Below are positions 1 to 64,000 of a stretch of DNA of 64,000 bases, one piece after another. The DNA lies in the NCBI GenBank assembly GCA_017506865.1, contig JAFCMP010000312.1, forward strand, positions 620,001 through 684,000. Direction: 5' to 3'. The number at the start of each line of letters is the position of its first letter. The stretch's first letter is position 1. This DNA is from Tribonema minus (lineage: Eukaryota > Sar > Xanthophyceae > Tribonematales > Tribonemataceae). The notes beneath the pieces are model-generated. The model was given only the letters and a program-made list of their open reading frames with translations, ran no database searches and had not been told where the DNA came from. Made by a program: the position numbers and the translations under genes.

Positions 1-61
1 ACCCTCGTGATAAACCGATGCCCCCCCCCCCCCTCCCTGTGTCATCAACCATCTTACACAG

Positions 62-3000
62 GCACATCCTGTCAGACGAGGAGAGTGACAGCGAGGCGGA
101 GGATGACTACGTAGACGATGTGCAGCTCAAGCCCAGCCTGAGCTCGACGGTCGTGGGCGGGCGCCGCGTGTCCGTGTGCGCGGAGCTCGTGGACCCCAAC
201 GCCGTAAGTTACTAGCGTGTTGAATAGAAAGTTGAAGTTGCCCAACCTTTCTTGACCTTTTCCTGAATTATTTGAAGCATTAAAAAAAGTTCGAAGGAGC
301 ACGCGCCGCGTGTTCGTGTGCGCGGACTTGTGGACCCCAACGCCGTAAGTTGAACTAGGAATTGGAAGTTTTCCTTATGAAGAACTCAGAGGAGAGAGTG
401 CGCTGCCTTGAGCATAGGCAGAAGTTTCAGGCGTATGAAGGCCATGACCATTTGATAGTGGGCGGGCGCCGTGTATCCGTGTGCGCGGAGCTCGTGGACC
501 CCAACGCTGTAAGTTAGCAGCGTTGTAGATATGAAGTTGAAGTTTTCCTGACTTTCTTGGCCTTTTACTGGAGTAATGTCGAGTATTTCAAACAGTTCGA
601 AGTAGCACGACCGATGTGTCCATGTGTTCAGAGGTCATGGACCTCGAACGCCGAAAGTGTGTTGAATCAAAACTTGAAGTGCGCTTGAGTCATTTGAAGC
701 ATCGCAAATTACACATGCAGTGCGTGACGCGCGTTTGTGTGCGCGGAGCTGCTCGACCCTAATCCCGTGAACCTGTTGCTGTTGGTTGTTCGATTAAAAA
801 TTAAAGTCTGCCTATTGAAGTATGAAGAAATTGAAGGGTTAGGGTTAGAGTTAGGTTTAGGGTTAGGGTTGGGGTTAGGGTTAGAGTGCGCTGCCGTACG
901 CAGAGGTGAAATTCTGCGGCACATGAAGGGGCAATGACTGCTTAGGCTAGCGGGCGCGCGCCGCGTGCCGGTGTGCGCAGAGCTTGTTGCTGGGAACGCC
1001 GTAAGTTGAAATAGAAATTGAAGTTTGAATTTAAAAATTGAAGTTGCGCCGAGTGTCCGCGCCATTTGCCTGTGCGCCCGGAGCTTGTGCACCTCCACTG
1101 CCATGAATGTGCGAGAGGAAGTTGACTTTTTACTGAATTTTTTAAGTATCAAAGAGGCGCGTGCCGTATGTTAGGGTTAGGGTTAGGTTCGTCGACCCCT
1201 ACGCCGTGTGTGTGTTTGAGCCCATCCCGCCCGCGAGCACAGGTAAAAGGTGTGCTCCTGACGGCTCAAGCCCCTCGAGCCAAAAGACAGAAGCAGCACA
1301 TGCCATTACTTATCCCTGACCCCCCGCCCATTTCCCCCCAAAATTGAACTCCAGAAGCAGGCTAGGTACGTGTGCTCTCACCATTCATCAAGCATCTCAA
1401 GTCAAACATGGCGATCCACCATTCCTGACCACTTTAAGCAGTACTACTGTAAATCACCCTCATCTCTTGCCCTCTTGCCCCCCCCCCCCCCCCCCTGCCC
1501 ATTACCCCACGTATTAGATCTCCAGAAGCAGGCCGAGCCGAGCAAGTACTCCAAGTCAAACATGGCGAACCACCATTCGCGACTAAAACTGTAAATCACC
1601 GTCATCTCTTGCCCCCCTTCCCCCCCCCGCCCCGCATGTGAACTCCAGAAGCAGGCCGAGCCGAGCAAGTACCCCAAGAGCAAGCAGGAGGCCAACAGGA
1701 TCTTGGACATACTGTCTGAGAATCTGTGAGTGACGTGGACGCTGCATGAGTAACTCAATGCTTTGGCACCACCTATCGGCAACGTGGCTGCTACACGAGT
1801 AACTCAAGATTTGGAATTACGTAACCGCTTTGTGATGGATGATGATGACGCTGCACGGCCTGAGGTCATAATTACGTAACTTCTGCCTTCCAGAATCAGT
1901 GTCGCTTATTTACAAGAGTTCATATGGTGGCTACACGTCATTGCGGAGGTCAGGGAGGCACGGTTTACATGTATTCCTTGAAAAAGATACTCCAAAGTCG
2001 CATATTGCTTTGGGTAAGGATGAGCGTCAGTGACTAACTGGGCAACGAAACTCGACTTGAGCACTTGTCACAAAGTAGCATTTCTGGTCCCTAGATCAGT
2101 GCTATTTGCAAGTTCCCGTGCTTCTGCATACCTTTCATGCGGAGGTGCTTGAGATTGGTGCCGTCCGTTCAGCATGAGAGCACACGCCATATGCAACGCT
2201 GATCCCACTCGCGCTGCAGAAGCTCTGCTTCACGTACGTGAGAGTCACACATGTTCAAGCTCTTGCACCCTGGATAAACAAGTGATGCAGAAGTAAACTT
2301 CAACTTGAAGTTCAGAGCGCAGCTGATCATATTTTGCTGAATGCGCTGTGTTGTGTGCACGGCAGCATGTTCAAGCACCTGGACCCTGGATCTACGGAGC
2401 GCGTAATGGAGGCCATGTTCAACGTGCGCAAGGAGCCGGGCGACTGCATCATCAAAGAGGGTATGTATGTACATTCAGTGGGCATGCATGCCGACAGCCG
2501 TTGAAACAGCTTGAGCATGTAAACAGTGCTGTTGAGGAGTCGAAGTTGATCAGTTGGAGTAGCAACCTCCACTAAAGTTAAAGAGAACTGGAAGGACAGT
2601 CACAAAGGGTGGCTTCAATGCGAAGCAAGTCTTCTTGGTGCCTGAGGGAGCATTGACACGCGGCATACGTGCTTGGCGAGGGCTAGGCTAGTCAAGGCTC
2701 AAGCTGTTCTCCACCACAGAGGTTGGTTAGGGTCAGGGTTAGGGTTCGGTTAGCGTTAGGGTTTTGCTGCTGATCTTCCAGGAGGCGGCGTTCCATGCAC
2801 ACGTGAGGGTAACCGCTTCGAGTCAACATGAGTGTGGGGCTGTGAGATTGGTTATTGGTGTAGCATGGAGGCTAGTGGATGCGAGCCATCGTATGCAACA
2901 TATGTTATTTGTACGTACACGCGTGTACACAGGACCTAGCCTCATATCACCGTTGCGGCTCGCTGCTGCAGGGGAGGAGGGCGACACCTTCTACCGTAAG

Positions 3001-6000
3001 TTGTGTGTGATTTACGTGCTGTGGTGCACATGGGTATGTAACGTGTACATGTGTATACCTACCCCTTGTACATGCCCATACACATACCCACAACCTCGTA
3101 TCACCGTTGCGGCTCGCTGCCGCAGGGGAGGAGGGCGACAACTTCTACGTCTATGCGTAACTGAAGTGTTTATGCAGGGTATGTGCAGACAAATGCGTAT
3201 GCCTACCCCTTGTACGTGCCTATACGTACCCTAACCGCCGCTGCTCGCTGCCACAGGGGAGGAGGGCGACAACTTCTACGTGATCGATGAGGGCACCATC
3301 GTGTATACCTACCCTTTGTACATGGTTATACATACCCTAACCTCGTACCCCCATCGCTGCTCGATGCTGCAGGGGAGGAGGGCGACAACTTCTACGTGAT
3401 CGACGAGGGCACGATCGACGTCTACATCAAGAAGGAGGGGAAGGAAATCAAGGTGCGCAAGATTAAAGTGGCAGAGGGGCAACAACCCTAACCTCAAGCC
3501 TAACCCTAACCCTTCTGTGTAATCTGAAGTGTGCCTCAGCAGCATTCAGTCTGCACACGCGTTGTGCACAGGCTTTACTCCGTCTACATCGAGAAGGACG
3601 GAAGGAAATCAACTCTGAAAGCTGCAGGGGCATCAACATCCATGTCAGCTGTGAGCCTTGCCCCTACAGTCGCATGAGTCAGCAGCTCTCAGGCTGGTAC
3701 TCATATGGCGCACAGGCGTCGCTCCAGAGGTGCGGCGCTGCCTGCTGTTTGATCATTCAATCCTGGCGCTTGGGGTTGCAGAGCCACAATATATGAGCAT
3801 ATGCTTTTACGCTTCGACCGCTAGTTAAACCCGTCGCCTGAAGTGTAGCAACAGGTGGCCAGATCTGCCATGTACAGTTAGCCCTGAGGCAAATAACGGA
3901 CAAGGAGAAAACAAATTGTCAATGTCCGGGCCACGTAGTTTACATAAAGTCTGGCTTGCGGCGCGTGGAAACTGACCACACGACTCCATGCGGGCTGCGT
4001 CCATGCTGAGCACTGCCAGCCAAACTTCAAAGCTTCAACCTCAAGCCTCGATGTGCCACAGCCACATCCCCTTTGCTGCAGGTTGAGAGCATTGGGGGGG
4101 GGGGGGGGGGGAATGAGACGTTTGAATCGGCCTGCATGCACAGTGCGTTGCGGCACTGCCGCCTAAACTGCCAAGCAGTAGCCTCAACTGTCTGCCCCGT
4201 GCACTGTGCTAGCTTAACCTTGACAACCTTGATAGCATGCAATTCAACAGTCAACACTCCTCTCTGCTCCAGGTGAAGAGCATGGGCTTCGGTGAGTCAT
4301 GTGGCGAGCACTGCCATCTAAACTTCAGCGCTACTTCATTTGACACCAGCCTCAACGGTCGACGCTCCTCTCTGCCGCAGGTGAAGAGCATGGGCGTCGG
4401 CGAGTCCTTTTGGCGATTGCCACTTGAACTTCAATGTTTTGTTGACACTGACTTCAACAGTTTGAAACTCCGCTTTGGTCCAGGTGAACTTCAATACTTC
4501 ATTGACACTAACTTCAACAGTCAACACTCCTCTCTGCCTCAGGTGAAGAGCATGGGCGTCGGCGAGTCCTTTGGCGAGCTAGCCCTCATGTACAGCACGC
4601 CGCGCACTGCGACGTGCAAGGCTGCGACCTCGCTGCGCCTGTGGGCGCTGGACAGGATCTCCTTCAAGGTGCGACTCTCCTCAACCCTAGCCCTAGGCCT
4701 AAACTTCAATGAACTTAGATTATGCTGCACCTGTAGGCGCTGGACAGAATCTCCTTCCAGGTGCGACTTTTCTGAATATCAGCCCTAACCAAAACTTCAC
4801 TATGAACTGTAACGTGCAAGGCCGCGACCGAGCTGCGCCTACAACGCTTTGCACTGTAATGCACAAGGTGTGCACCTGAGAGCGCTGGACAAAATCTCTT
4901 TGAAAGTGATATCTCCAGATCTGCCCCGAAATTCAGACCCTAACCCGCTCTGTGACAATCATGGCTTCCACGGCGCTGCACCTGTGAGCGCCGGCGGGTG
5001 TGAACTGCCGCTACCCAACTACCCGTTTCTCGATACGTACTGCTTGTTCCCCTCTGCCCAGTGTGAAATGCTGCTACCTACCCATTTCCCAGTACGTACC
5101 CCTTGTTCCCCTCGCCGAGTGTGAAATGCCACTACCCATTTGGCAGTATGTACCGCTGCCCCCCTCAGCCCAGTGTGAAATGCCGCTACCTGCTGACCAT
5201 TTTCGTTAGGGTTAGATGCTGCTACCTACCCCATTTTCTAACACGCACCCCCTGTTCCCATTGTTCTCGCGCAGCTCATCCTGATGCAGACGATGACTTC
5301 TGCCCGGTGTGAGATTGCTACCTACCCCATTTTTCAATACCCACCCCATGTCCTCGTCTTTCTCGCGCAGCTCATTCTGATGATTGCGGCGTGTGTTGGT
5401 TCACAGTACGCGCACATTGCCCAGTGTGAATTTTTGCTACATACCTACCCGTTTCTCAATACATACCCCTCGTCCCGGTCTATCTCGCGCAGCTCATCCT
5501 GATGCAGACGACCACCTCGCGCCGCAAGCAGTACAAGACCTTCCTCGACCGCGTCCCTATTCTGCACGAACTGACGGAGTACGAGGTCAGTTATGGTTGT
5601 TGCTTGAAGTATTTTTTGGAAGTGTCTTTAAGAAGAGCGCCAGCTTATTTCTTTGCAATTACTGCGCGCGGCAAGTAATACGGGTCCTTCCTGGACCGCG
5701 TCCCGAGGTCAGTTGAAGTATCAAGTTGAAGTTTTAAAAAATCAATCTTTTGAAGAACAGCGCGATTTCGCACGAATTGATGAAATATGAGGTCAGTTGA
5801 AGTTGTCAGTCGACGTATTCATCAGCGCCACGTTACGCGAGCTGACGGAGTACTAGGTCAGTTGAAGTTTTCAGATGACGTATTCTTTGGAAGTTTCAAA
5901 TAGCACCTCGCACAGCTGACGGAGCACGATGTCAGTTTGAGTGCTCAGTTGAAGTGCTCAGTTGGAGCATTCATCAGAAGCATCAGACAGCGCAACTTCG

Positions 6001-9000
6001 CACGAGCTGACGGAGTTGCAGTGTTCAGTTGAAGTATGCGGGTAAGGTGTTCTCAAAATCTTTTTAGTGTTTATCATCTGAGGTGGTGTGAGGGCTCATC
6101 GTCATTTAACGCAGGCCTGGCGATGCTTGTGATAGTCACTGCGCATTTTGGTTGCCATGGACTTTGCGCTCGGGTGAGGTGTGCTGCGTGCCATGAGTAA
6201 CGGTCATGTAACTGCCTGCGTGCTGTCGGAAATGAGGATCGCGGCAGGCACGATGCACAGGAAGAGAAGCCGCGTGTTGCGGGTGGAGCGAGAGTGATAA
6301 GCTGTGTAGGTCGCAAACCTGAAGAAGGAAGGCGAAAAAGTGCCAAAAGGAAAGTTCTGGAGAGACCAGAAATGTGCGATACACCCTGAACTGACGAGTC
6401 ATTTGCTGTGCCCCCCGTACTGTATAACTGTGACCAGTCATGACCCTGCATGGCTAATGTACTGCAGACCTTATGTGAGGCTGCTATTGCGACACCTGCA
6501 ACTGCCATGTTCTGTGCACAGGTCCTCACCGTCGCCGACTGGTGGAGGAGGTAGTGGAGGATGGTCACATGAATGTAACTGTCATGTAACTGCCGTGTCT
6601 GTGTACAGGTCCTCACCGTCGCCGACTCCCTGGTGGAGGAGGTGGTGGAGGACGGCCACGTGATCTGCGAGCAGGGGGACGTCGGAGAGGCCTTCTACAT
6701 CATCAAGGATGTGAGGAACTTGAGTTTCAGAATGTATAATTCAATATACTTTCACAAGTACTTGTTGAAGTATGCGTTGGTGTACATAACATTACATGAA
6801 CAAATCTGTACACACAGAAGTGCAAAATGCGAGCAGGGGGACGTCGGGGAGGCATTCTCATCATCAAAGATGTGAGCAACGTACACATAAACCTCAAGCA
6901 CTTGTTGAAGTACGTGTTTGTGGACATATTAAACTGTGACAACTGTTGCCATAGCGAAAGTTGGTCACGTGATCTGCGAGCAGGGGATGCTGGAGAGGCG
7001 TTCTACATCATCTACGACATGATAAACATGAATGCACACATGTGTAACACATTAGCAAAGATGTTAGGGAGGTGTATTCTGCAGAGTGACGAAGTACAAC
7101 ATTCAAAATATATCTATCATCATGATTGTAGGTCGTGAATGTAGGCGATGCCTGAACCTTGTCTGATCTGCTGCATGCACTTGGAAGTTTTTTTGCGTGC
7201 TGCCTTACTGTAAGGGCTCAGCAGAGATCATGAGCCTGCCACTGCCCTGCATACATTCTGTAGAGCATTGCGTCAAGTTGAGAGTACACCCAATGACCAA
7301 AATGCTAGCGGCAGTTTACAAGTTTTGTCATTTTCAACAAGTCTATGACAGCAACACTTGCATATGGTTTACTTTAAAGTATGGTACTGTGGTTTTGAAA
7401 AGACGCGTGTGGTTTGCACACAGTGCCACTCCCTGCGCCAATTCTAGTTTTTGATCCTGCACGGCACCCTAACTTCACCTCTGCTTCAGGGCACCGTCAT
7501 CCATCACCTAACTTCTTATCTAACCTCAACTCTCTGCTTGCCCCAAACCCTAGCGCACCATCGTCTGTCATCGAATGGACGCCACCAGTGAGGTGGTAAA
7601 CCTAACCCTACCCCCATTTCCAGCCCTGAACCTTAGTCTCAAGCTGAGTCTGGCTTCATCCTGAATGTTACACGTGAACTTACACCGCTGCTGCAGGGCA
7701 CCGTCGTGTGCCGGCAAACGGACGCTACCGGGGAGGTGGTGGAGGTCGCACGCCTGGGCGAGGGGCACTACTTTGGCGAGGTAAGCAGCAGCGCTCACCT
7801 TCAATTAAAATAGGGTTAGGGTTAGGGTTACGGTTAGGATTAGCCCCAGCGCTCAGCTTCGGGCTGGGGTGAGGGGCACTCCTTTGGCGAGGTGAGCAGC
7901 AGCGCTCCACTTGAATCGAACGGTTTAGGGTTAGAGTTAGGATTAACATAGGGTTAGCCCCAGCGCTCAGGTTCAGGCTGGGCGAGGGGCACTACCTCGG
8001 CGAGGTAAGCAGCAGCTCTCGGCTTCCATTGTTAGGGTTAGAGTTGGGGTTAGGGTTAGGGTTGGGGGGCTAGCCTCAGCGCTCAACTTCAGGCTGGGCA
8101 AGGGGGCGCTAGTTGGCGAGGTAAGCAGCAGTTAGGGTCAGATTCAGCACAACGCTCAGCTTCAGGGCCGTGCGTCTGGGCGAGGGGCAGTGCTCAACTT
8201 GACCCCACAAGCCACCGCCTTGACCCTGATGTGAAGCTGTGTGAGAGCTGGTGCGCAAGAGTTACAGCGGCGGCAGAGCCCTGAAAGTGGGTCAGGGCTA
8301 GAGTTAGGTTTTGGGATAGGGCTAGATGCCTGTACTTTGTTCTGGTCTTGGCGACAGCAGCTTAGAATAAGGCGTTAATGTTAGGGCAAGGGTAAGGGTT
8401 ACCGGCCGGACTGCACCCCTCTGCTGGATTTTAACTTCGCTTCTCATGATTCCAACTTCAATTCTCCTGGTTTGCTGTTGCTGCAGCTGGCGCTGATGAC
8501 CAGCAAGGCGCGGCAGGCGACGGTTACGGCAGTTGGGCAAACGACGCTGCTGTCGATGGACCGCAAGACCTTCAAGCGCATACTCGGTGAGCCAATGAAA
8601 GCTGAAGTTTTAAAGTACTTGAAGTATCTGCCCTCGCAGTGTTTGCACTTCATGTATTCCCACTTGGTGTTATGCTTAGATTAAGGGTCAATGCACCGCA
8701 AGGCCTTCAAGCACGTACTAGATGAGCCAATCCCAGCGGCTGAGCATCCGCTGCCCTGATCTCATATTCTCTGAGCTTGCGGAAGTCCTTTGAGTAGTAT
8801 GACAGGTGCTTCATTTCTCGCTGGTGTGAAATACCTTCAAGCGCATGGGCGAGAGGCATGGATCTCAAGGTCGTACCTCTCAGGGCCCAGCAAACGCCGC
8901 GTGCGCTTGTGCAGTAACTTCCCATGTCTAAGTCTACATGGCTACAGAATTGAGGGAACATTTCGCGCTACACACAGCACAACCTCAACACACCACCACA

Positions 9001-9414
9001 CCCCACTATTCAACTTTGGCAAGCTCCTCTGAGGGCCCAGCAAGCGCCGCGTGCGCTTGTGCAGTGACCTCGCATGAAGGTCCACACGGCTACAGTATGT
9101 ATGGAGCATTTTGCGCTACACTGAGCACAACTTCAACACCCTTGCACCCAATCTTCAACAGCCCCAGCCCCATTGTGGTCCGCTTGCTACGTAAGCTCTC
9201 ATGAAACATGAGTAGTTCAGGGACACTTCTTGACACATGACTAGTTCAGAGACACTTCATCTCGGCGTTGAGCATAACCTCAACACCTTTAACAACCCCA
9301 TTGTAATCCTGACCCCTGCCCCCCCTTCCCTGTCTGTGCGTGCCAGGGCGCATGGAGGATATCCTTCAGCGCAACATGGAGAGCTATCGCAAGATACAGG
9401 CGCAAGCGATATAG
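62..9414 (+). CDS. cAMP-dependent protein kinase type II regulatory subunit (5' partial)
   Basis: This is the regulatory subunit that holds the PKA catalytic subunit inactive until cAMP binds; it acts in the cytosol. Exons read as 62-203, 1649-1725, 2366-2460, 3373-3452, 4543-4668, 5493-5585, 6609-6710, 7697-7780, 8487-8586 and 9347-9414 (stop TAG); all phases agree and give 321 complete residues. In order they show an acidic stretch, the inhibitor site [16 protein letters not shown] (serine at the phospho-acceptor position, hence type II, close to animal [11 protein letters not shown]), a first cyclic-nucleotide domain with [16 protein letters not shown], and a second with [17 protein letters not shown]. 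Both keep the Glu and Arg that bind cAMP ribose and phosphate. The protein ends in [20 protein letters not shown]. About 80 N-terminal residues, including any docking/dimerization domain, lie before the window. Assignment is firm; exon edges are hand-called. Confidence 0.94.
301..1210 (+). repeat. Ladder of decayed copies of PKA-R inhibitor-site exon end
   Basis: The intron after the exon ending at 203 holds repeated copies of the exon's last ~45 bases plus donor. They start near 302, 466, 607, 728, 960, 1055 and 1165. The copy at 458-513 still encodes [17 protein letters not shown] followed by GTAAGT; others have decayed ([14 protein letters not shown] at 305). Several units include a run of TTAGGG-type repeats (839-893). 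Confidence 0.85.
2970..3610 (+). repeat. Exon-edge copies around PKA-R exon 3373-3452
   Basis: Acceptor-side copies of the exon start (GEEGDNFYV) lie at about 2970-2999, 3122-3155 and 3254-3302, each preceded by a CAG acceptor. A decayed copy of the exon end ([11 protein letters not shown]) lies at 3575-3610, past the true donor. Confidence 0.8.
4271..4905 (+). repeat. Exon-edge copies around PKA-R exon 4543-4668
   Basis: Copies of the exon start ([10 protein letters not shown]) lie at 4271-4308 and 4380-4412, and a weaker one near 4077 runs into a G tract. Copies of the exon end (ALDRISFK plus donor) lie at 4735-4765 and 4875-4910. Confidence 0.8.
5040..6030 (+). repeat. Exon-edge copies around PKA-R exon 5493-5585
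   Basis: Units of about 95 bases before the exon carry copies of its acceptor and start (LILMQT), best at 5273-5300 and 5367-5390. After it, the exon end HELTEYE with donor GTCAGTTGAAGT recurs at about 5690-5715, 5770-5800, 5835-5870, 5915-5945 and 6000-6030. Confidence 0.8.
6522..7025 (+). repeat. Exon-edge copies around PKA-R exon 6609-6710
   Basis: A near-identical copy of the exon start (VLTVAD...EEVVEDGH) lies at 6522-6567 behind its own CAG. Copies of the exon end ([14 protein letters not shown]) lie at 6826-6872 and 6965-7020, the first still followed by GTGAGC. Confidence 0.85.
7480..8195 (+). repeat. Exon-edge copies around PKA-R exon 7697-7780
   Basis: Decayed copies of the exon start lie at 7485-7510 and 7553-7595. 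Copies of the exon end GEGHYFGE plus GTAAGCAGCAG lie at 7867-7905, 7976-8015, 8093-8130 and 8165-8195. TTAGGG-like runs separate them (7814-7840, 8031-8062). Confidence 0.85.
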
Positions 9415-19195: not shown

Positions 19196-19528
19196 TCAAA
19201 TAAACGATGCCTCTGTCGTCACCTGCTTGACAACAGCTGCCTCTGGATCGCGCCCCTCAGCGGCACCAGCAGTGCCAGGCTCCAACGCCGCCACTGCTAC
19301 GGCCAGCAAGCCACCAGCCGCTAGAGTCGTTGCCCCGCTATCCAGCCATTGTCTTCTTGTCAGCACCCTTGGCTTTGCTACGTCACATGTTGACTGACAG
19401 CTGGGCCGCGTCGCGGGTGTAGGAAAGCGCTGTTGCTGTGAAACTCGAATGCAACTGGCATTCGAAATCAGCAGCAGCGGCAGCAGAAGCAGCAGCACAG
19501 CAGCTGCTTGTCGCCGTTGCCCAGGCAT
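19196..19528 (-). CDS. Putative thylakoid-lumen-targeted small protein (or first exon of one)
   Basis: The 110-residue frame begins [20 protein letters not shown], a clear signal peptide (residues 1-25). A Ser/Thr/Arg-rich stretch follows. Then comes LTRRQWLDSGATTLAAGG, a twin-arginine motif before a hydrophobic segment ending LEPGTAGAAEG (cleavage about residue 90). Signal peptide plus transit region plus Tat-type lumen signal is what a nuclear gene for a lumen protein needs in an alga with a secondary plastid. Only ~20 residues remain before the stop, so either the mature peptide is very small or the frame is spliced; a usable donor GTGACG follows codon KQ near 19225. No family is recognised. 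An alternative is that it belongs to a longer carrier transcript. Confidence 0.5.
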   Translation of the reverse strand: MPGQRRQAAAVLLLLLPLLLISNASCIRVSQQQRFPTPATRPSCQSTCDVAKPRVLTRRQWLDSGATTLAAGGLLAVAVAALEPGTAGAAEGRDPEAAVVKQVTTEASFI

Positions 19529-51101: not shown

Positions 51102-53166
51102 GATGTGAAGGTCAACAGATTCTAATAGAGGTTGGCAAAGTTGATAATTTAACAGAGATCGGCACAGCTGGTATCTGCGGGCTGCTGCGTGTGGCTGGCT
51201 GGCGCAGTGCTTCTAACTTTTTTACTTCCACACGTCTTCAAGTGGGGGAGAGTCACGCGCTGGACGTGAAAGCTTGATCAAGACCACTGAGGAATCCGCA
51301 CAGCACATACAGGACGGGCTGGACGCTACTCTTTCAGGCCTCAGCAGAAGGAGGACGAGGGCTTGAAGGATATCACTGATTTCTCTGGCGTTGACATCTC
51401 TTGCAGGTGAGCAGAAAAGCGTGTGTTCTGAGTTATGGGAATCTTCTGCGTTGGTGTTGGCGGTAGAGTCGCAGCCCAGGCACGGGCGCAAAGCAAGGCT
51501 GGCTAGTTGCGTGCACTACCCATTCCCAGTAGCGCGTTATTTGCTTTCCTGGCGGTACCCTTGTTCTCGCTGAGGGATCGGGACTGACAGCCATCATCTG
51601 TGAGCTGTCGAGTGGTGCTCTCATTGCACGGCTAAGCTTGGTCAGATGGGCAACTTTCATCAACAAAAAACCACGCAAATGATCCGGAGGTGTCTCAGAG
51701 TTGACATGGTTGCTGTAATAAAAATTCAGGAAGGCCCGGTCGGCGCCCGCTGTCAACGCGCATTGCGTGGCACGTGGTTTAGTTGGCTCAAGGCAGTGCT
51801 AATCAAAAGAATAGCTCCTGTGTTCATTGACGATTTTGATAATATTGAACTCAGGTCACAGGACACATATTCTGCATAAGGATTCATGTACCTATTCTGA
51901 CATCAGCAACTCGTGGATGAACGCAGCAGGGCGCACTTTGTTGTAGCAGCTGCCTCGCCATGACAACAAGTGCACGACAATGCAGGCCTGCTTGTGCGCC
52001 CACACCTTTGACTCTTTTTGGATAGGTGTCGCACTTGCTTGTAAGGAATTTGCATCTTCTGATACTGACACTTGAAGATTTGCTGGCGCAGCCATGCAAA
52101 AGATCTCCAATATGTTGAACCATCTGCTGCGTTGTGGTACTGAAGTCGAAGCAGCACATTCGGGTGCTTGCAAGGTGCTGCAAATGCGCTCAAGCCACAC
52201 CCCAAACAACGTGCTGTCACGCATCAGACTGTAACGTGTAGTTTGTTGCGCAGATGTTGAAGAAGTCTAAAGGGGCACGTCACCTCAATGTCACTGTTGC
52301 GCTTGCACCGCGGCCATCTACACGGTCCGCATGCACTTTCTTGCAATTCAGTGCCGTGCTGTCTGCCAAAGCTGCAGCCTATGATATTTATTAACTTCTG
52401 ACTTGCTTTCAGGATGCATGACCTTCAGGTCATCGAGTGTAGTGTATGCTCTGCCCTGAGTCTCTGCTGACCGGCGCAGCATGGCCCATGGCGCATCTCG
52501 CCTTGGTGATGCAGAGTTTAATACTACTGCTGCGCTTGTTCAATCAGGACGCACTTCAAGAGACGCACAGATTCGCACAGTACAGCTTTCAAGAATTCAT
52601 TTGCACAGAATCGCACAGATTTACCGCGTACCTGATGCTGGAATACATGTCGACCCTGCACAGTGACGGCAAAAACCACAGCTCAGCAGAACGCTGACCA
52701 CAGCTACAGCCAGTGCGGGCCAAACGGGTTTTTTGCACACTGCGCATACATGCACCTTCGAAGTACACTTGTACACTTCAAAGTACAACCTTGTTGAAAC
52801 CAAGTGTCTGTAGGCAGAATCCCTCTCGTTGCTGACATACATCGCCAACTCATGTTATGTTGCAAAGGAACGCGGCTCAGGAAAACACTGACGATGGCCA
52901 CAGTCATACCCACTGCCCCCAGTACATGCATGTACAACTCTATTGTTTCTTTGAAGTTTCTATAGGCATTCCTGTTGATTGCTGGAAATACATGACCAAT
53001 TCTTGTTGCGCAGAAAATATGGCTCAGGAGAACCGACAATGGCTACAGCCAGCGCATACATGCACCTACTGACCCAGATACTTTCATCATCACCTTGAAG
53101 TTTCTACAGGTAGCCATCCCTATGAGTGCTGAACATACATCACCCAACCCTTGTTGCGCAGACAAT
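51102..53166. other. Divergent intergenic region (Mis18-like / glutamate decarboxylase)
   Basis: About 2 kb between two start codons, so it must carry both promoters; I see no clear TATA box. Minus-strand open frames at 51433-51756 and 51884-52224 look protein-like but match no family I know. From 52665 on, decayed copies of the decarboxylase first-exon start appear (about 52665-52700, 52855-52905, 53005-53055). They suggest an intron in the 5' leader ending at 53159. Confidence 0.5.
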
Positions 53167-56100
53167 ATGGCTCAGGAGAACACCGACAATGGCTACAGCC
53201 AGCGTGGCTCGGACATCAATCTCGGCAGCCTGCCAGTGCCGCCGCTGGCGACGAAGCCTCCTGTGCCAGACTACTACTCTGCAAGTCCTGCAATGAGGCG
53301 CGATGCTGCGCGCTACGATATACCGCTGGACCCGCTGCCATCCAGCGTGGTTGAGGACATCATCAGAGGTGACGCTCCACTTCAGCTGCTAGTACTTGAA
53401 GTTTTTGTTTCTTCAACTGCTAGTCTTGGGTTATTTTGCAGGCTAACGTTATTAGAAGTGTGCGGTATGACATAGCGCTGGACCCCGCTGCCGCCCAGCG
53501 TGGTTGAGGACTTCAACTTTCAGGACTTGAAGTATTTGTAGCCTACAGTAGCCTTGCAGAACTTGAAGTATTTGTGACCAAAGTATCAGAAGGTAAGGTG
53601 GCACTTCACTTCAACTTCTAGTTCTTGAAGTATATGTTGGCTGAAGCTATCAGAAGTGTGCGGTATGACGTACCACTGGACCCGCTGCTGTCCAGCGTGG
53701 TTGAGGACATCGTCAGAGGTGACGCTCCCCTTCCACTGCTGTATTTGAAGTACCTGTTGGGTAAAGAAGTCGAAGTGTGCGGCTAGTACTTCAAGTATAT
53801 GTTGGCTAAACTTGTCACAAGTGTGCGGTACGAATTATTGCTGGATTCGTTGTTGTTCAGCGTGGTTTAGGACATCATCACAGGTGACGCTCCGCTTCGA
53901 CTTCTACCACGAAGTACTTGTAGCCTAAAGTATCAGAAGGTGGCGGTGCACTTCAACTGCCAGTACTTGGGGCATTTGCAGGCTAACGTTATCAGAAGTG
54001 CGCGGTATGACATAGCGCTGGACCCGCTGCCGCCCAGCGTGGTCAATGGAACAACAGCTGAGTCCTGCAGTAGCAGCGCTCTTTCCATGCTTCATGCGCT
54101 TTTGAAGTTCACAGAACCGGGACCACTTGCTTCAGATTACTGTCCTCTTGTGGTTCCTTCATTAGTTCTTTACTTTTCCCGGATTCACACAATCTGTTGC
54201 ATCATTGTGCGCACCCTTGAGGCACCCGCAGCTGGCAGAACGCAGGCCACCAACTAATCACCAGCAGTAACCTTCAGAGCCTGTACCACAGTTCTGACAC
54301 TCAAACTGCAAAAGGCGAGATGGCGTTGGATAGAGAAAACCAACAGATCCTCAGCAGCAGCCACCATCCCAGTGTTGACTCGGTGTCATCGGCTGTATTT
54401 GTCTTGTAATTTGCAAATAAGATGGCACTGGGTGCACGCATCATCATTGGCTGTGTGTTTTCTGCAACTTGCTACACTTGTGACAGATGAGATGCCATGG
54501 GACACACTCATCATCACTGACTTTGTTTTCTTGTAACTTACACAACTTGTGACAGACGAGATGGCATTGGACGGGAGGCCACGCCTCAATCTGGCGTCGT
54601 TCGTGACCACCAAAATGGAGCGCGCAGCGGAAAACCTCATGACGGTGCGTATGTTCAAGGCTGGAAGTGCGCGTCTCTGCGTATCTGCGCCTTCAAGTAG
54701 AAACTTCAATATTGATGACTGGAGGACAGCAACCGGGACAGCCCTTGTGAACTTGCACTGAGACAGCCTTTCTGAGAGGGTACAGTTGAAGTTACACAAG
54801 CTTGTGCTCATGACCCCCATGCACTCAATCAACATGACTGTGCCCACAGCAGGTGTGTCTATTGCTTGACACTGACAGACAGGTGATGCATCACAGCGTG
54901 GGAGGGTTGCATGTTGCACTTGCAAGGCTCATGAGCGCTGCTCTTATAGAAGTGCTGATGGTCAAAGTGTGTTCCGGGGCACGTATGCAGCACAGCAGCT
55001 ACATGCGTACTTCAAATTGAAGTCCAAGGTGTCAGCAAATGCATCAATCATTCGCGAATGCATCATTAGGACATGACACGGCACACAGTTGCCAAAAAGC
55101 TGAGCCAAAGCTGAGGTACACGCATCTGTGTTCTGTGCTGCAAACAGCAAGGAGCTGTAGCTCCATCAAGCTCTTCTTTATACTGCTCCTGCATGTGAGC
55201 AGCGGACGTGCAGTACTCCATTGAAAGTCACTGGTCATTCGTGCTTTGTGCGAGTCATCACTCTCAGAACATAGTGCGCTGTCAGCACGTTGAAGCTGGC
55301 CTATGCCTTGTATGCGATGGTCCCGTTATGGACATTCTTGGTTGGAAATCTGACCCAAGCCCTACCTTGAGAATTAATGTATTAATTGCAATTAATTGAA
55401 TAAAAATTAATTGTGCCTCATGTCTCGCGTCTCGCAGGAAGCGAGCACCAAGAATGCCATCGACCTGGACGAGTACCCGCAGACCACAGCTATGCAGCAG
55501 CGCTGGTGAGGATGGATACATGCGCCGCGCGCATGCGGCTATAACTTCAAGTCACTTGCAGCTGTAACTTCAAGTCATGCGTAGTTTATGCGCGATAAGC
55601 GATACCCCAGTCACTTTTCGTACACACCGGGTAGGCGCATCCCCTCAGGCTGCGCCCTGTTGCTGTGCGGGAGCACAGCGCCTGGGGTCCACGTGTACCA
55701 TAATAGCTGTGGTTGTGGTCAACCGCAACATTCCCTCAAGTGCGCTGTGCTTGCGTCGTCAAGACGGAGATTGTCGTAACCCTCATCCTAGCCCCCGCCC
55801 CCTCATGAGTCAATGTGTCCACAATTTGGGCACCATCCCTACCCCCGAGTTCACGACAACACATTATGCTTGCTAGCATGCAATACTATGTGAACGCGAG
55901 GGAGTTGTGTACATTGGGGTTTGCAGAGTAGTGCAGCCAGTGTGTGGTCATCAGAGGCACGACAGGGTATGTAGGTATCTGCATATCTGAAGTAGTTTTC
56001 GGCTGCCTGCCTGTGTCGGGCGGTGGTGATCTGCACAGAGTGCCACAGACGCCGCTACCGCAGTGTCTACGCATGTGTCTCTCTTCAGCAAGAAATCTGG

Positions 56101-59100
56101 TGCATGTGATGCTGTGCTTTGAAAGAGCTTTTGCAGTAGCGTTACGCGCTCACTTCAGGACACATGTACGCTTCTTGTTTCGAAATGTCAGTGCTCTAGC
56201 CAAGCCTCATGGTCTATTGAGGAGTTGCAGATGCATCAGTTGGGTTGACAAGACGTTCGAGTACTGGATCTTGTTGCAGGATATGACATGCCAGCTTACC
56301 ACGCAGCAACTAGCACGGGCTCGGACTGGTCAACATGATGCAATGCCAACCGGGCAAAGCTGTGCTGCAGAGACGCAAAAGCTTTTAAAAGAGAGAGCGT
56401 GTGTTGTGGGGGAAATCAAACCATCCCCATGGGGAACCTTGAACACGTACATGAAAGTGGTCCATCTAACATGATTATTGGTGGGAGGCACTTGCGGCCA
56501 ACCATCCCTTGTCAACTAGAGCTCTACGATCTGTTGATTCGTTTTCATAATCCATCTGCTGCCTTTGCTGTTACTTCTCCGATGTACACGCAGCGTGAAC
56601 ATGCTGGCCAGGCTGTTCCATGCGCCTCTGGACGCCTGCGAAGACGGCACCGGAACAGCGTGTGTCGGCTCAAGTGAGGCCATCATGCTGGTAAGCCTTT
56701 TGCGCAGCAATTGCGCCGATGGTGATTGGCTTTGCTGATTCAAGTTCATGCACTTGACCATAGCGCTGTGCATGAAGCACATAGGAGTACATGTGTATAC
56801 ATTAGGTGTGGTCATGGCACAGGCCGGCTCCAGCGAAGCCATCATGCTGGTAAGTCTGTTATTCAGTGGTTGAAGTAGTGGTTACAGGCATTGCCTGTTC
56901 AAGCGCCATACAGAGGCGTTGTGCATGAAGTACATGCATGCGCAGCCATGAGGTGTGGCCATGACAACGGCACGGCCTGCGTCGGTCTGAGTGAGGCCAT
57001 CATGCTGGTAAGCCTTTTACACAGCGAGAGAGTCAGTGGCGACTTGCTGTGCCTCATCTCAACAAGCCACTTGCTGCAACGGCGGTGCTCATGACGTATC
57101 GACATAGCCTGTGAAGCTTCATGCACTAGCACTGTTCATGCACTAGCACTGTTCGAGCGGTGCATGCATATGCATACATGAGGTGTGGTTGTGGCACAGG
57201 CACGGCCTGCGTTGGCTCCAGCGAAGCCAGCATGCTGGTAAGCTCTTTGCGAAGTGATTGGGCCTAAAGTGGTTGGCTTTGCCAGTTCATGTGCTACACC
57301 GTAAGTGGTTCATGAAGTGTGCTCGTGCACTGATATGTCTGCGTCGGCTCCAGCGAACCTATCATGCTGGCAAGCCGTTCGCAACGTTAGAGTCGTGGGT
57401 ATGCTTGTGAGACATCGGTTAGGGTTAGGTTTAGGGTTAGGGTTAGCCTGTTCATGCACAGCGCAGTTAACTATATGGAGGGGGGGAGGGGGGGGGGCGA
57501 TGGACGAGGACGTAGCGTGGTGGGGGGGGGGGGGGTGCCACTTGGTTTATCTCGTCTAGAAGTGATTGTCAGTGCGCATTGAGACGCTTTCAAGGCAAAC
57601 CCTTCCTTCTGATGTCCCCTGTGGTGAAATATACCCCAGCCGTTCTGGTCATGAAATATCTGTCAGATTAGACAAATAGAGAAGAGTGCCTGGCTCTACA
57701 CTAAATGCCAAGCTTAGTAAACGCATGCTGACAATGTAGTGCTGAAGGTGCTACGACAACATGCGACTTGATAGAGAGCACTCAATCCGACGGCAGGACA
57801 ATTCTGCCGTGTCAACTACAGTCAAAAGTAGTGATGCATACCTAGAGTCGGGTGTGGGGCACATGGAGGAGGACGTAGGGGAGGATCCTGAGATGCCATT
57901 TGGCGGCGGCAGCGTTTGAGTGGTTGTCGTTGAGACACTTTCAGACTATCACACGACATGTAGATTCCGTACAGCAAGCTTTAAGTTAGATTGCATTCAT
58001 CTGGGCTTTTTCGCGCCCTGAGCGAGAATTAATATAAAGTACAGTGGGGCAAGCCCCATATAAGGGCAAGCCCTTAGAGAAGGATGCATTTAGGTTCTTG
58101 AGACAAGTGCTCGCTATTCATCCTTTTCTCCTTGCAACTGTAGGCAACGCTGGCCATGAAGTGGGCGTGGAAGGAGAGGCGCACCAAGAAGGGTCTAGAC
58201 GTTTCCAAGCCCAACATTGTCTTTGGCTCCAACATACAGGTGAGCGCAGTTGAAGCCTTTTTTGCTTCTTGAAATACTGCTTTGAAGTACTGCTTCGATG
58301 TACATTGAAGTAAGAGCCCGCGCCTTGCACAGTGCATGTATTGCATGTGTGGATGGGCACATGCATATACGTATCATAGGATGTGCACATAGTGCCTCGA
58401 ACGCTAAAAAGCTTGCACACAGAAGTCCTTTTGCCTACTGTGGACGTGGTGGACTCGTGGCCAATGACTGCAGCAGCGGCGACCACAGTTATTGGTAGAA
58501 GGCACTTGCGGCTAACCATCCCTTGTCACCTAGAGCTCAACGATCTTTTGATTCGTTTCTCATAGTGTGGAGCAGCTGTTTGGCGTGTTTAAAAGCGTAA
58601 CGACCAGGGCATCCGCGCACTGCATGTCTGCGTCGTGCAAGACATAAACGGGGGCTTGTGGCAGATGGAGTGCATGCATGCCCCATCATATCTTTCCATG
58701 TACGTGCGTCCCTGGTAATTTGTACGCATGGATGTGGCCATGGGCTTAGAGACATAGTTAGGGCTAGGGTTAGGGCTAGGGTTAGAAGACCCCAAAGGGA
58801 TGCTGGCCATCCGGTGTGCGCCTGTAGCCAGGCCCCACACAGCAGTGTGACCTGCACTGCACCCCCAATACGCTCATAGTCTTGCGCGACAATACAGTAT
58901 TTTGCGTGCTCGTTAACTCACTTTGGGGTTGCAGAGCGCTTGCGTCAGCGTCTCAGGGGCGGGTCCCGCGTAGTGCCATGGCAGGGTGCGGAAGCGCTCA
59001 GCAAACAGCACTGTGCGGATTGTGACTCACCGCACATGAGCACTGGCTGCGAGAGGTGTATCGCTCACGACAGACCCGTTTTGGATAGGCAGAGTGCTTG

Positions 59101-62100
59101 CGTCAGTACCCCAGAGCTGTGTCCTGCACGTTTCTGTGGCAGGATGCGGAAGCGCTCAGTAGATGACATTGTGTGGAGTGTGACTGGCCGCACGCGCACA
59201 CCGGCGACTGCACCCTATGCCCCTGTATCAAGCTTAGAGTAGGGTTACAGTAGGGTTAGCCTATTTATTGAGCAGTAGTATTTTCCAACCTGAAGAGTTG
59301 TAGGGTCTCCCTCGCATGACGACAGTGGGCAAGCCGGAGTTGAAGTGATAGTCCCGGAGTTGAACTGATACTTTTCAGTCCTCGCCTCACCCCTCGAGAA
59401 TTGCATGCTGTATCAGAGTTGAAGTGGTAGTCCCGGAGTTGAAGTGGTACTTCAATTTCAGTCCTCGCCTCACCCCTCTGCTGCTGCTGCTGCCGCTGCT
59501 ACTGTTGCTGCAGGTCGTCTGGCACAAGGCGTGCAAGTGAGTGCGCAGCTACCTACTGATTTGTTTTGCACCGTTACATGAAATAAATCTGCCTAACAAG
59601 TGGTTGAACACATTGGTCGCGCTTTGCACTCTGAGTCGCCCCCTCCCCCCTGGCATTTGCTTTAGACGAACATCATGAGTGCAGCCCAACACGTCAACCA
59701 GCTTAGGGTTGCTGACTGCTGCATATGTCCCAGAGACCCCGCCGCGTGTGGTCGCTACCTACCTGACACTGTTAGATGAAGAAATTGCCCAACAAGTGGT
59801 AGGACACATCGCTGCTGTATGCTTTACACTCTGACCTGCAAACGTAGCATGCAATGATACGCACCCAATGTATGCGTACATGGCAACAGAAGGTCTTAAG
59901 AAGGCCCTACACACCGCCACATAGCACCTGCTGATGCCTTACACATGTTCATGTTGCCGCTCGACATCTCATATGCGTCTGTACGGGCCAAATGCACCCT
60001 TCACCCCAGGAAGCACATGTGCAAAGCAAAAAATACATGCCAGAGTTTCTCCTGACTGGATGTGACCGTTGCGTTTTCACAATCATGGACAGATTTATAC
60101 ATTTAAAGTCGGCATGTGAACTCTGAACCACAAAGTGTATGTGTTCGTGGGTGGCCAGGTACTTTGAGGTGGAGTCAGTCGCGTGAGGCAAACGTCTCTC
60201 CCGACTGCCTGGTGCTCGCTGCTTGGTGCAAAGCCTACTGGCTGATTGCTCAAACACCATCGACGTCTCGGTGACCCTTACTTGTTCACAACCACATATC
60301 GAGATGTACGGTTCAATTCAGTATGCAAAATGTGAATAAAACAGTGGATGTTGTATGTGTATGGCCAGGTACTTTGTGACGTGGAGTCCCGAGAGGCAAA
60401 CGTCTCCCCCGACTGCCTGGTGCTGACCGCAGAGCGCACTCAGCCGCTGGTCAACAAAAATACCATTAATGGCATTTTTTGTTACCATTGGCATGTGCGC
60501 TATGCTTGTTCCTGGCTTTTGGCTTCATTCCGTGCCAAGTTGCCGAAACCTTTATGATTTGATATATGTTGGATGTGGGTGGCCAGGTACTTTGAGGTGG
60601 AGTCAATCGCGTGAGGCAATAGTCTCTCCCACCTGCCTGGTGCTCACTGTCGAATGCGCCAAGCTCCTACGCAGTTGAGAAAGGCCCAATGGCGAGTGTG
60701 CTTGTTCCTGGTTCTTGGCTCTATTTCTTTCCAAGAATGCCAAAGCTTCAATTCTTTAAATAAACGTGGGCATTGTGTGTGGGTGCAGGTACTTTGAGGT
60801 GGAGTCCCGTGAGGCAAATGTCTCCCCCGACTGCCTGGTGCTCACTGCGGAGCGCGCAAAGCCGCTGGTGGACGAGAACACCATAGGCGTGTGCGCCATG
60901 CTGGGCTCAACGTACAATGGCGAGTACGAGGACGTCAAGGGCATACACGACATGCTGGTGAGCTTGTGCATACATGCATGCTGAAATAGTACCCATTAAT
61001 ATACTTGTATATCAAGGTGTGATGCTCGGCAATCAGGAGGGTGTTGAGGGCACACACGACATTCTGGTGAGTGAGCTAAATGTATTCAGCAGATGACACC
61101 AGGTAGCTAACCTCAACCCTAATCCTACCCCTAATTCTACCCCTAAACCCCTTCTTGGTGCATGGTATTGTTCGCCTTCATTAATACCAGTCTATGAGTG
61201 CCTAACATGTACGCTTGATGTAATGCAAAACAGTGGTAAAGCATTTTTGACATGCTGGTGGAAGGTGACCTGCATGTGCGTACATGCAGACTCATGTACG
61301 TGCATACATGCAGACTCATGTACCCAAAAGGCTGCTGATGATGAGCTCTTTTATTGAAATGCGATCCTTGGCAACTACCAAGCGATCAAGGGCATACATG
61401 GCATGACATGCATGTCCTCACCCTAAGAGGAACTGCGCATTATGCTACCCCCATATGCCTCTGCAGACCTCCTGCGGATGATAGTCAGCATGAATAACAA
61501 GAACTGTGACAAGAAAACTGTGTTTTGAAATGCTCAAGTTCTTTGAAGTGCTGAAGTAAACTTCAAGCTTGAAGTGAACTTTAATTTGTTGTAGCCGCAT
61601 CCGCACTCGCGCACCAGCTTCAGGTCGCGCCCAGCAAAGAGAAGGGATGGGACGTGCCGTCACACGTGGACGCACCCTCGGGAACTGTGACAACAAACTG
61701 TACTTCGAAGTGTACTTGAAGTAAACCTCAATCTTTAAGTAAACTTCAATCTTGAACTAGGCTTCAACCGTCTGTGGCCGCATTCATGCTCGTACCAACT
61801 TCAGGTGGCGCTCAACAAGGAGAAGGGGTGGGAAGTGCCACTGCACGTAGACGCAGCCTCCGGAGGCTTTGTCGCGCCCTTCCTGCACGACAAACTGGTG
61901 TGGGATTTCCAGCTGCCCAATGTCAAGAGCATCAACGTGTCGGGCCACAAGTTCGGCCTGGTCTACGCGGGGATAGGGTGGCTAGTGTTCAGGTGTGTAC
62001 TGCTGGTTGAACTGCTGTACTGCTTTGAACCGTTGCCAGCCACGCTGGGTAAGCCGTGGCAATGCGCCTCGCTGAACAGTTTGATGGAGTTGACGCATCA

Positions 62101-63481
62101 TCGACGGCTTGTCTGCTCATCACCTGCATTTTGTGGGACGGCAAGGAGCCCAAATTCAAATACTGTACTGCTTGAGCTGTCCGAGACATGGCGACTTGCG
62201 GCAATTTGGGTTAAGGCGGGGGTCGGGGCTTGGGTCATGGTGAGGGCGAGGTTCGGGGTCAGGGTTAGGATTACGGTTACGGCTGGCTGCTGCTCATGTG
62301 CGGTACACAGCTTGACAAGCTGCGTAAACATCCAGGATGGCTTCAGACATCTGTTGCTTTAGGGGTGGGTTTGAGTTAGGCCGCACATCATGCACGGCTT
62401 ACGCCGCTGTGCGCGCACTCTGACCGTACACGCTAACCCTAACCCTAACCCAAATTGCCGCCTCGTCAGATGCACGCCAAATGCGTCTTGGGGACAGATT
62501 TATCGCTCTGGTGGGCGGTGTCCTCACGCCCAAGTCCAGGAACACTCGCCGTCCTGTTGTAGACGGATCCACCCAAACTCAAAGCATGGCGCTCACTCCT
62601 TGCCATGCCTACCAGCCAACGCTCTGCTGCAGCGGTGCGCCAGTAACCCTAACCCTAACCCTGGCCTGCGCCTCTCGACCGGCAAAGGGCATCGCTGCTG
62701 CAGGATTCGCGCCCGGATTCTCTCCGCACGATCTTAGTGGTAGGATTGGGGTTAGGCCTTCAATCTATACTATGCAGCGCCTATTCCCCTCTCGCAGGGC
62801 GAAGCGCAGCCTGCACCCCAACTCGGTCTTTCACGTGAACTACCAATAACCTGTAACGCCTGTTTCCCTTTCACGCGGAGAAGCATCACCTGCGCGCCCA
62901 GACCTGTTCAACTACCACTAACTTTGAAGACCATTTTTCTTTCACACAGGGAGAAGCAATAAATTCAAGCTCCTGTCCCCCCTCGCAGGGAGACGCACCA
63001 ACTACTTTGCACCAACAACTTGAATCACCTTTTTTTCCCACGCGGGAGAAGCAATGACTTCAAACACTGGTTCTTGTCCTGCAGGAAGAAGCACAACCTG
63101 CACCTGTCATTGGCATCCACGTGAACCACCAAAGACTTCAAACACCTTTTTCTTTACTGCCAAGAACAGCAATAACTTCAAACTCCTGTCTCTTTCTTGC
63201 AGGGACAAGCACAAACTGCACCCTGACCTGGTCTTTCACGAGAGCCTAAGATGATTGTTGAAAACAACAACGCATTATTTGTCGCAGAGAAAAGCATCAA
63301 ATTAAAATTTTTGCTCCTTTCTCGCAGGGAAAAGCACAACCTGCACCCCGATTTGGTGTTCCACGTGAACTACCTGGGGGGGGATCAGTCCAGCTTCACG
63401 CTCAACTTCAGCAAGGGCGCGGGGACCATAGTGGGCCAGTACTACAACCTGCTGCGGCTAGGGAGGACCGGCTACACGCAG
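53167..63481 (+). CDS. Glutamate decarboxylase (3' partial)
   Basis: PLP-dependent enzyme turning L-glutamate into GABA and CO2, usually cytosolic. Exons are 53167-53368, 54556-54644, 55438-55505, 56594-56690, 58144-58239, 59514-59536, 60789-60957, 61805-61992 and 63328-63481; phases agree and give 362 residues. The order matches plant and bacterial [124 protein letters not shown] and [21 protein letters not shown]. The PLP lysine is Lys297 (61949-61951) and the cofactor-pairing Asp is in HVDAASGG. One exon is only 23 bases. ATG 53167 sits just behind a good acceptor, so a leader intron is likely. The last ~100-140 residues, including any calmodulin-binding tail, lie beyond the window. Confidence 0.97.
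53450..54060 (+). repeat. Copies of glutamate decarboxylase first-exon end
   Basis: The exon end ([18 protein letters not shown] plus GTGACGCTCC) recurs at about 53460-53510, 53654-53725, 53820-53890 and 53995-54045. The second copy reads [20 protein letters not shown] with both splice sites intact but is 65 bases long, so adding it would shift the frame. Traces of the exon 2 start recur at 54313-54500. Confidence 0.9.
56475..56549 (+). repeat. Dispersed 75-base repeat, copy 1
   Basis: TTATTGGTGGGAGGCACTTG... through GATTCGTTTTCATA matches 58489-58564 with about nine differences. It is unrelated to any exon, and lies just before exon 56594-56690. Confidence 0.85.
56820..57375 (+). repeat. 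Copies of glutamate decarboxylase exon 56594-56690 end
   Basis: The exon end ([12 protein letters not shown] plus GTAAGCC) recurs at 56815-56850, 56950-57007, 57195-57238 and 57338-57372, spaced 135-230 bases. The copy at 56950 spans ~60 bases and keeps [11 protein letters not shown] and its donor. Confidence 0.92.
57497..57600 (+). mobile_element. SINE/MITE-like interspersed repeat, copy 5 (truncated)
   Basis: G-rich head with GATGGACGAGGACGTAG, then GTGCCACTTGG and TGCGCATTGAGACGCTTTCAAGG. The tail with ATCTGGGCTTTTTCGCG is missing. In a glutamate decarboxylase intron. Confidence 0.65.
57860..58037 (+). mobile_element. SINE/MITE-like interspersed repeat, copy 6
   Basis: Head CACATGGAGGAGGACGTAGG, GATGCCATTTGGCGG, TTGTCGTTGAGACACTTTCAG, and the intact tail CATCTGGGCTTTTTCGCGCC plus GAGCGAGAATTAATATAAA. 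It ends ~105 bases before exon 58144-58239. Confidence 0.72.
58489..58564 (+). repeat. Dispersed 75-base repeat, copy 2
   Basis: Partner of 56475-56549 in a different glutamate decarboxylase intron. It has the same orientation, is about 88% alike by eye, and has no exon counterpart. Confidence 0.85.
60155..61265 (+). repeat. Copies on both sides of glutamate decarboxylase exon 60789-60957
   Basis: Exon-start copies ([21 protein letters not shown]) lie at 60159-60262, 60366-60465 and 60583-60670; the first two cover ~100 of the 169 exon bases. Exon-end copies (KGIHDML plus GTGAG) lie at 61035-61070 and, weakly, 61235-61265. Confidence 0.93.
61595..61690 (+). repeat. Copy of glutamate decarboxylase exon 61805-61992 start
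   Basis: Reads as a diverged version of the exon's first ~60 bases ([16 protein letters not shown]) behind its own CAG acceptor. It lies ~190 bases before the true exon. Confidence 0.85.
62790..63260 (+). repeat. Copies of glutamate decarboxylase exon 63328-63481 start
   Basis: The exon start ([16 protein letters not shown]) with CTCGCAG or TTGCAG acceptor recurs at 62795-62850, 62868-62925, 62945-63000, 63040-63130 and 63200-63252, spaced 70-125 bases. The copy at 63203 reads [15 protein letters not shown]. Confidence 0.93.
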
Positions 63482-64000
63482 GTGATTTGCTGATGCTCAG
63501 CAGCTGTTGACACCGTTGGCAGGCACTTGCTGATGCTCAGCAGCTAAGTTGAGCGTCAACTCCGGCTACTATGGTTCATCAAATGCTGCAGCTTGCCTCG
63601 AGCGGGGAGGATCAAGCACACGCAGGTGGTTGCTGATGCTCAGCAGCTCTAGTGATGACACCCTTTGCATGGACAGTACTTGCTGATGCTCAGCGGCCAG
63701 CTTAGCTGCCTCCAACAACATCTACAGCTGAGCAACGCTACAATCTGCCTAGGCTGGGGCTCATACGTGCGCAAACTTCACCACTTCAACTTCATGTGCA
63801 CATGTGCACCCGTGCGCGTGAATGCCACGGCGTACACTCCATGAGTGCTTAACCCTAACCCTAATCCTAACCCTGACCTTGTTGCAGCCTCTCCATCACA
63901 GCACGTCTTAGTGCAAAAGGAACACACCAATCTGCGCATGCTCGCAGTGACGTGCAGCGTATCCTGGCTTGCACTTCTTCACGTTCGGGGCGGTGCCTAA
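63482..64000 (+). other. Start of the next glutamate decarboxylase intron
   Basis: No coding exon is visible. A copy of the preceding exon's end and donor (ACACGCAGGTGGTTGCTGATG) lies at 63595-63640, and the word TTGCTGATGCTCAGCAGC recurs at 63488, 63527, 63629 and 63679. CCCTAA-type repeats lie at 63850-63875. Confidence 0.7.

Follow-up and report, generated by a model that had tools for sequence, protein, structure and literature searches.

Ladders of exon-edge copies in the introns of three Tribonema minus genes: probable junction-spanning tandem duplications

The window analysed here, a stretch of 64,000 nucleotides from Tribonema minus, is eukaryotic DNA with GT-AG introns and holds three genes whose models, comprising 24 exons, were built by homology and independently of the repeats described below (Table 1). 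The product of the first gene matches the PKA regulatory subunit (PKAR), both in PDB entry 4din_B (6.8e-52, covering the central 157 residues) and in the Pfam family cNMP_binding (2.5e-42); a comparison of this protein with viral contigs found no relative. The second is a mitochondrial carrier, as indicated by three stretches matching Pfam Mito_carr (1.4e-21). A putative first coding exon of this gene near 17.35 kb, spotted by eye, was left out of the analysis. The third encodes a glutamate decarboxylase (GAD) and matches PDB entry 3hbx_A (1.6e-122) in an alignment that is continuous through all eight exon joins. One of its exons, 59514-59536, is a microexon of 23 nt, which the continuous protein alignment confirms. 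Among solved structures, those nearest to this protein are what we take to be plant and bacterial GADs. All 46 modelled splice sites read GT or AG, and the protein alignments together with these dinucleotides indicate that the homology-defined exons use the sites joined to them. Searches of the window for tRNA genes and Rfam families gave no match.

Table 1. Coordinates of the modelled genes and of the exon-edge copies in their introns
Feature	Position	Strand	Remarks
PKA regulatory subunit gene (PKAR)	62-9414	+	10 exons in window; hand model
PKAR exons	62-203, 1649-1725, 2366-2460, 3373-3452, 4543-4668, 5493-5585, 6609-6710, 7697-7780, 8487-8586, 9347-9414	+	
Mitochondrial carrier gene	10933-16273	-	Exons 16158-16273, 15009-15279, 13890-13991, 12557-12709, 10933-11160
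Glutamate decarboxylase gene (GAD)	53162-63481	+	9 exons in window
GAD exons	53162-53368, 54556-54644, 55438-55505, 56594-56690, 58144-58239, 59514-59536, 60789-60957, 61805-61992, 63328-63481	+	
PKAR exon 1 donor-edge ladder	303-1102	+	6 copies
PKAR exon 2 acceptor-edge copy	1526-1562	+	
PKAR exon 3 acceptor-edge copy	2250-2275	+	
PKAR exon 4 acceptor-edge ladder	2972-3301	+	3 copies
PKAR exon 4 donor-edge copy	3581-3612	+	
PKAR exon 5 acceptor-edge ladder	4273-4416	+	2 copies
PKAR exon 5 donor-edge ladder	4724-4994	+	3 copies
PKAR exon 6 acceptor-edge copy	5275-5306	+	
PKAR exon 6 donor-edge ladder	5688-6016	+	4 short copies
PKAR exon 7 acceptor-edge copy	6522-6561	+	Spacing 87
PKAR exon 7 donor-edge ladder	6828-7017	+	2 copies
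PKAR exon 8 acceptor-edge copy	7555-7597	+	
PKAR exon 8 donor-edge ladder	7867-8194	+	4 copies
PKAR exon 9 donor-edge ladder	8687-8846	+	2 copies
Carrier exon 16158-16273 donor-edge ladder	15783-16064	-	3 copies
Carrier exon 15009-15279 donor-edge ladder	14489-14882	-	4 copies
Carrier exon 12557-12709 donor-edge ladder	12235-12490	-	2 copies
Carrier last exon acceptor-edge ladder	11301-11709	-	2 copies
GAD exon 53162-53368 donor-edge ladder	53476-54062	+	4 copies; exon image 62 nt in each
Period-69 array at start of GAD exon 54556-54644	54435-54572	+	Outside the 25 edges; junction query matches intron part only
GAD exon 56594-56690 donor-edge ladder	56825-57369	+	4 copies
GAD exon 60789-60957 acceptor-edge ladder	60159-60635	+	3 copies
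GAD exon 60789-60957 donor-edge ladder	61028-61405	+	2 copies
GAD exon 61805-61992 acceptor-edge copy	61624-61667	+	
GAD exon 63328-63481 acceptor-edge ladder	62802-63243	+	3 scored copies; more seen by eye
GAD exon 63328-63481 donor-edge copy	63586-63625	+	Threshold score

Between the carrier and GAD genes, at 17.5-53.1 kb, no gene model was verified by codon scoring or by Pfam searches of 8 + 7 partly identical stretches in or beside the region, so that it contributes to no edge count. The best Pfam match there was FANCAA (E 0.083), far below the family cut-off, and there was no other. The density of local repeats in this region (0.397) is close to that in the three gene spans (0.408). We note an open reading frame at 19199-19585 on the minus strand. 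Judged by eye, its start has the look of a signal peptide with transit and twin-arginine-like signals behind it, which would hint at an alga carrying a secondary plastid; the frame has no Pfam match.

Self-comparison of the window with BLASTN (E<1e-6) gave 161 direct and no inverted pairs. A sensitive local scan yielded 300 deduplicated direct repeat pairs, which fill 39.5% of the window; before deduplication there were 544 local pairs, and the controls gave 45.5 (reversed sequence), 18 (reverse complement) and 0 (one shuffle). Repeats occupy 40.6% of the introns of the three genes compared with 7.8% of the 1.5-kb spacer between two of them, and at the level of the local scan only three of 22 introns lack any repeat.

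Several other repeats were observed. The introns of the three genes contain, on the sense strand, 41 occurrences of the heptamer TTGAAGT (1.8 expected) and 24 of ACTTCAA (1.7 expected), with both absent from the exons of these genes; each belongs to an odd palindrome, ACTT(G/C)AAGT. As a terminal inverted repeat or an introner this motif was rejected, with 139 occurrences window-wide on both strands and loose offsets from the junctions. Short TTAGGG-type arrays lie in introns and elsewhere (835-884, 2725-2763, 7811-7843, 8031-8067, 40213-40260, 41463-41507 and 57417-57446), and AGTG/TGAG tetranucleotide arrays at 12312-12468 fall within the donor-edge ladder of carrier exon 12557-12709. PKAR intron 9 contains a 116-bp duplication (8876-8991 and 9026-9139) tied to no present exon edge. 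A 70-bp pair, 91% identical and 2 kb apart (56475-56544 and 58489-58558), is unlike the local ladders; GAD exons 56594-56690 and 58144-58239 lie between its copies.

In the edge test, each exon edge was represented by its outermost 45 bases as the query, and the threshold was the maximum of 132 shuffled searches. The test covered three of the five genes claimed in the original prediction. Copies were found in the adjacent intron for 25 of 43 edges (61 copies), compared with none of 43 in the opposite-side control, which agrees with the prediction that copies of an exon's start lie upstream of it and copies of its end downstream. Both 5' and 3' boundaries are affected (11 of 21 acceptor and 14 of 22 donor edges). 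Searches of other introns matched in 18 of 970 tests and mid-exon queries in one of 13. The copies are therefore real and one-sided, but the statement that nearly every exon has them was too strong, as 18 of the 24 exons are involved. With queries spanning the junction the number of positive edges is 29 of 43, three of these through the intron part only, and the remaining 14 edges show nothing. By score the ladders hold one to six copies, where two to seven had been stated, and at least two in 17 of 25. In the seven introns with ladders from both sides the donor-edge copies always precede the acceptor-edge copies (7/7), so that the two face each other as predicted.

The spacing of the copies has a median of 143 bases, with quartiles of 115 and 165 and a 10th-90th percentile range of 101-218; more than a quarter of the spacings exceed 160, some of which are perhaps gaps that hide an unseen unit. 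In 43 of 61 copies the homology crosses the splice junction with a score above the best of 20 shuffles (in 37, the score is at least 8). Judged from the sequence, each unit is a head-to-tail duplication that spans the splice site. Exon images measure 43 nt at the median and 108 nt at most, and none of the 61 reaches the far end of the exon (extension limit 150 nt). Duplication of whole, mutually exclusive exons was rejected on this count and on the empty opposite-edge tests. Within ladders the exon-side ends of the images agree closely: the sum of squares is 4022 compared with 14688 on permutation, and none of 10,000 permutations was as low (17 ladders, 53 copies). In the ladder of GAD exon 53162-53368, for example, the common end lies at 62 nt in all four copies. 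Periods are weakly shared within ladders (p 0.045, or 0.014 without long gaps), and unit lengths vary inside them.

Comparison of exons with their copies gives mismatch rates of 0.090, 0.082 and 0.205 at codon positions 1, 2 and 3. When multi-copy ladders are used to polarise the differences, copy-side changes number 40/462, 34/491 and 43/400 at the three positions (p 0.13), although these raw counts are not independent because one exon change may be counted in several copies. The sites at which the exon alone differs number 1, 1 and 10. Even in a base-matched test, third positions are favoured among copy-side changes (odds ratio 1.9, p 0.008). In general the exons have changed mostly at third positions, and the copies decay in a nearly even manner. 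Decay had been predicted to increase with distance from the exon; the trend is present (rho -0.32, p 0.012) but moderate: of 17 ladders, 11 have a nearest copy that is better than the farthest one (p 0.03 when judged by identity, 0.055 by score). Third-position patterns were nested in 22 cases, reversed in 12 and mixed in 17.

Mutations common to different copies are few. At codon positions 1 and 2 there are nine, against 6.9 expected under a generous rule and 4.6 under a strict rule, and the shared-mutation fraction of the real data is 0.12. We compared this fraction with forward simulations that used the same detection as the real data, with fixed 110-nt exons, a few settings and neither gene conversion nor long deletions. 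Growth at the base, in which the functional junction is re-duplicated, gave mean shared fractions of 0.09 and 0.08. In the base-growth and junction-only simulations 71-81% of edges acquired copies compared with 57% observed, and real ladders are therefore spread more unevenly than modelled. Junction-only duplication also places 62-76% of repeat pairs in contact with a functional exon, compared with an observed 52%. Taken by themselves, the observed pair classes (direct 0.52, image 0.35, intron-only 0.13) are matched better by an equal mixture of junction and random duplication, with values of 0.45, 0.38 and 0.17, but this mixture fails on shared mutations (0.30 versus 0.12); its opposite-edge matches, in 6 of 112 tests, do not discriminate from the 0 of 29 in the real data. 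The predicted growth by local tandem duplication centred on junctions is supported, and in a more specific form: simulations that lack a preference for the junction, or in which copies are made from copies, fail, and the shared-mutation measure agrees with repeated duplication of the functional junction.

In our view, the ladders are probably junction-spanning tandem duplications that grow at their base. The sequence shows a segment made up of an exon's tail, its donor and the first part of the intron, or of the intron's last part, the acceptor and the start of the exon, repeated several times head to tail about 140 bp apart; the copy joined to the exon is coding and the rest are intron. On balance, the sharing test and the simulations suggest that most rungs had the working edge as their template and not an older copy. 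For the mutational cause of the ladders, and likewise for a homology-driven step within it, we infer the following course. Purifying selection would remove duplications within exons or across whole exons, so that only junction-spanning and intron-internal duplications survive. A fresh copy and the functional edge that adjoins it would form the best-matched local repeat pair, and repeated rounds of unequal exchange, or of slippage during replication, between these two could add copies at the base that keep a nearly identical exon-side end. If further copies are made anew from the functional edge in this way, older ones would be pushed away from the exon to decay near-neutrally. Introns would lengthen stepwise, each preserving in layers how its exon edges once read. 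Whether this extends to a standing process that duplicates the active exon-intron junction in roughly nucleosome-sized steps, so that introns grow from both edges with fossil copies in order of age and most intron length of the lineage is supplied in this way, is more doubtful; we hold this wider reading to be possible but rather less than even in its chances.

Two explanations would dispense with copying from the working edge. Ordinary intronic minisatellites, in which an array begun across the junction turns over unit by unit with any unit copied, as in one amphioxus mirage, would account for tandem, direct and local arrays with common exon-side ends and partly common periods, and the unit size resembles that described for the BflGb6 mirages (150-160 bp; PMC3087553). 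Simulated turnover of arrays at junctions, however, gave mean shared fractions of 0.32 and 0.31, and none of 60 replicates was as low as the real data in either setting, which makes this explanation unlikely. Random tandem duplication throughout the genes, followed by selection, needs no special process. The junction anchoring would then be the surviving remainder, recognisable since the exon is conserved; geometry by itself accounts for the side on which copies lie, and repeats confined to introns do exist (18 of 119 pairs). However, when such duplication was simulated with selection against exon damage, only 22-24% of pairs touched the functional exon (17-25% in the first simulation), half the real proportion, and opposite-edge matches arose in 20-83 of 112 tests compared with none of 29 in the real data. 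Too many mutations were shared as well (mean fractions 0.37 and 0.34), with none of 60 replicates as low as the real data in each of the two settings. We therefore regard this explanation, already disfavoured, as improbable, and somewhat more so than the minisatellite one.

A process coupled to splicing or transcription, such as one in which R-loops or nascent transcripts at exon-intron junctions give rise to breaks or copying, might instead duplicate the active junction time and again. The copies do seem to derive from the functional junction. Only 10 of 61 images extend past the middle of the exon, and longer exons have longer images (rho 0.69, 25 ladders), which random breakpoints do not predict; such coupling could explain why the images lie mostly within the near half of the exon. 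The common exon-side ends within ladders, however, are more simply explained by homology-driven repetition, so that we give coupling a small chance, hardly above that of array turnover. The least probable proposal, and in our view a very improbable one, is that the copies have a function, for instance in splicing, where they might act as decoys or alternative sites, or in supplying portions of alternative exons. Of the 61 copies, 48 can be aligned to the junction within one base; 23 of the 31 donor copies among them retain GT and 15 of the 17 acceptor copies retain AG, and the nonsynonymous/synonymous ratio between exons and copies is 0.32, a value that is unpolarised. The donor positions +3 to +6 of the copies, however, agree in 102 of 124 cases, which means that the GT is preserved at a rate similar to that of adjacent positions; no image includes the far exon edge, and the polarised copy-side changes are nearly even across codon positions. 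Coding function of the copies was rejected, as the third-position excess, once polarised, lies mostly on the exon side. Junction-spanning duplication with growth at the base remains the reading that we prefer.

The lengthening of introns is usually ascribed to transposons and small indels. If introns of conserved genes consist in part of datable exon-edge copies, they would hold a countable record of their own growth, with the exon as reference, and the copying and displacement of junctions would, if true, offer a simple route to longer introns. The question also arises of how the spliceosome copes with many copies that still bear GT or AG (38 of 48).

Introners are copies of one element across many genes. 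They resemble the ladders in shaping introns across many genes within a single genome (PMC9860276), but each ladder appears to be built from an edge of its own gene, as indicated by the few matches to other introns within the window. Intron gain by tandem genomic duplication of exon segments bearing AGGT has been described (PMC3443670), with cases in Drosophila (PMC2891723), and like the ladders it involves local tandem duplication with exon sequence and splice sites (PMC3443670, PMC2891723). That process, however, gives rise to a new intron with ends that duplicate flanking exon sequence (PMC3443670), whereas here existing introns lengthen. Such gain was rejected for these genes: in none of 21 introns does the intron tail match the upstream exon tail and the intron head the downstream exon head (best scores 9, threshold 14). 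In human paralogs, internal tandem repeats at exon-intron boundaries alter gene structure, and the likeness lies in these boundary repeats; they are recent, copy-number-variable and in recently duplicated genes, unlike those found here (PMC2812944).

The closest counterparts are the mirage minisatellites of amphioxus, known in Adh3 and in the globin genes BflGb6 and BflGb9 (PMC3087553). Our literature search, mostly outside subscription journals and confined to the accessible parts of the reports, found comparable ladders only in the amphioxus and human cases named here. Mirages are likewise tandem repeats across intron-exon boundaries, both 5' and 3', with splice signals kept in many copies, and their units of 150-160 bp in the globins and 10-72 bp in Adh3 may be compared with the median spacing found here (PMC3087553). 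They show length polymorphism and somatic instability, and regular splicing is undisturbed (PMC3087553). They differ in being described at few loci, whereas here the junction-spanning queries detect copies at more than half of the edges of three neighbouring genes, and in age, the BflGb6 units being 81-100% identical and the copies here older (PMC3087553). The BflGb6 mirage also shows concerted evolution within its cluster, in contrast to the little sharing of mutations among the copies here, as seen in one haplotype (PMC3087553). If our reading is true, what amphioxus shows as mirages at a few loci might, in an unrelated lineage, be a major contributor to intron sequence. The ladders are of a known kind, mirage-like junction duplications, and what is new here is their density, their age and their probable growth from the base.
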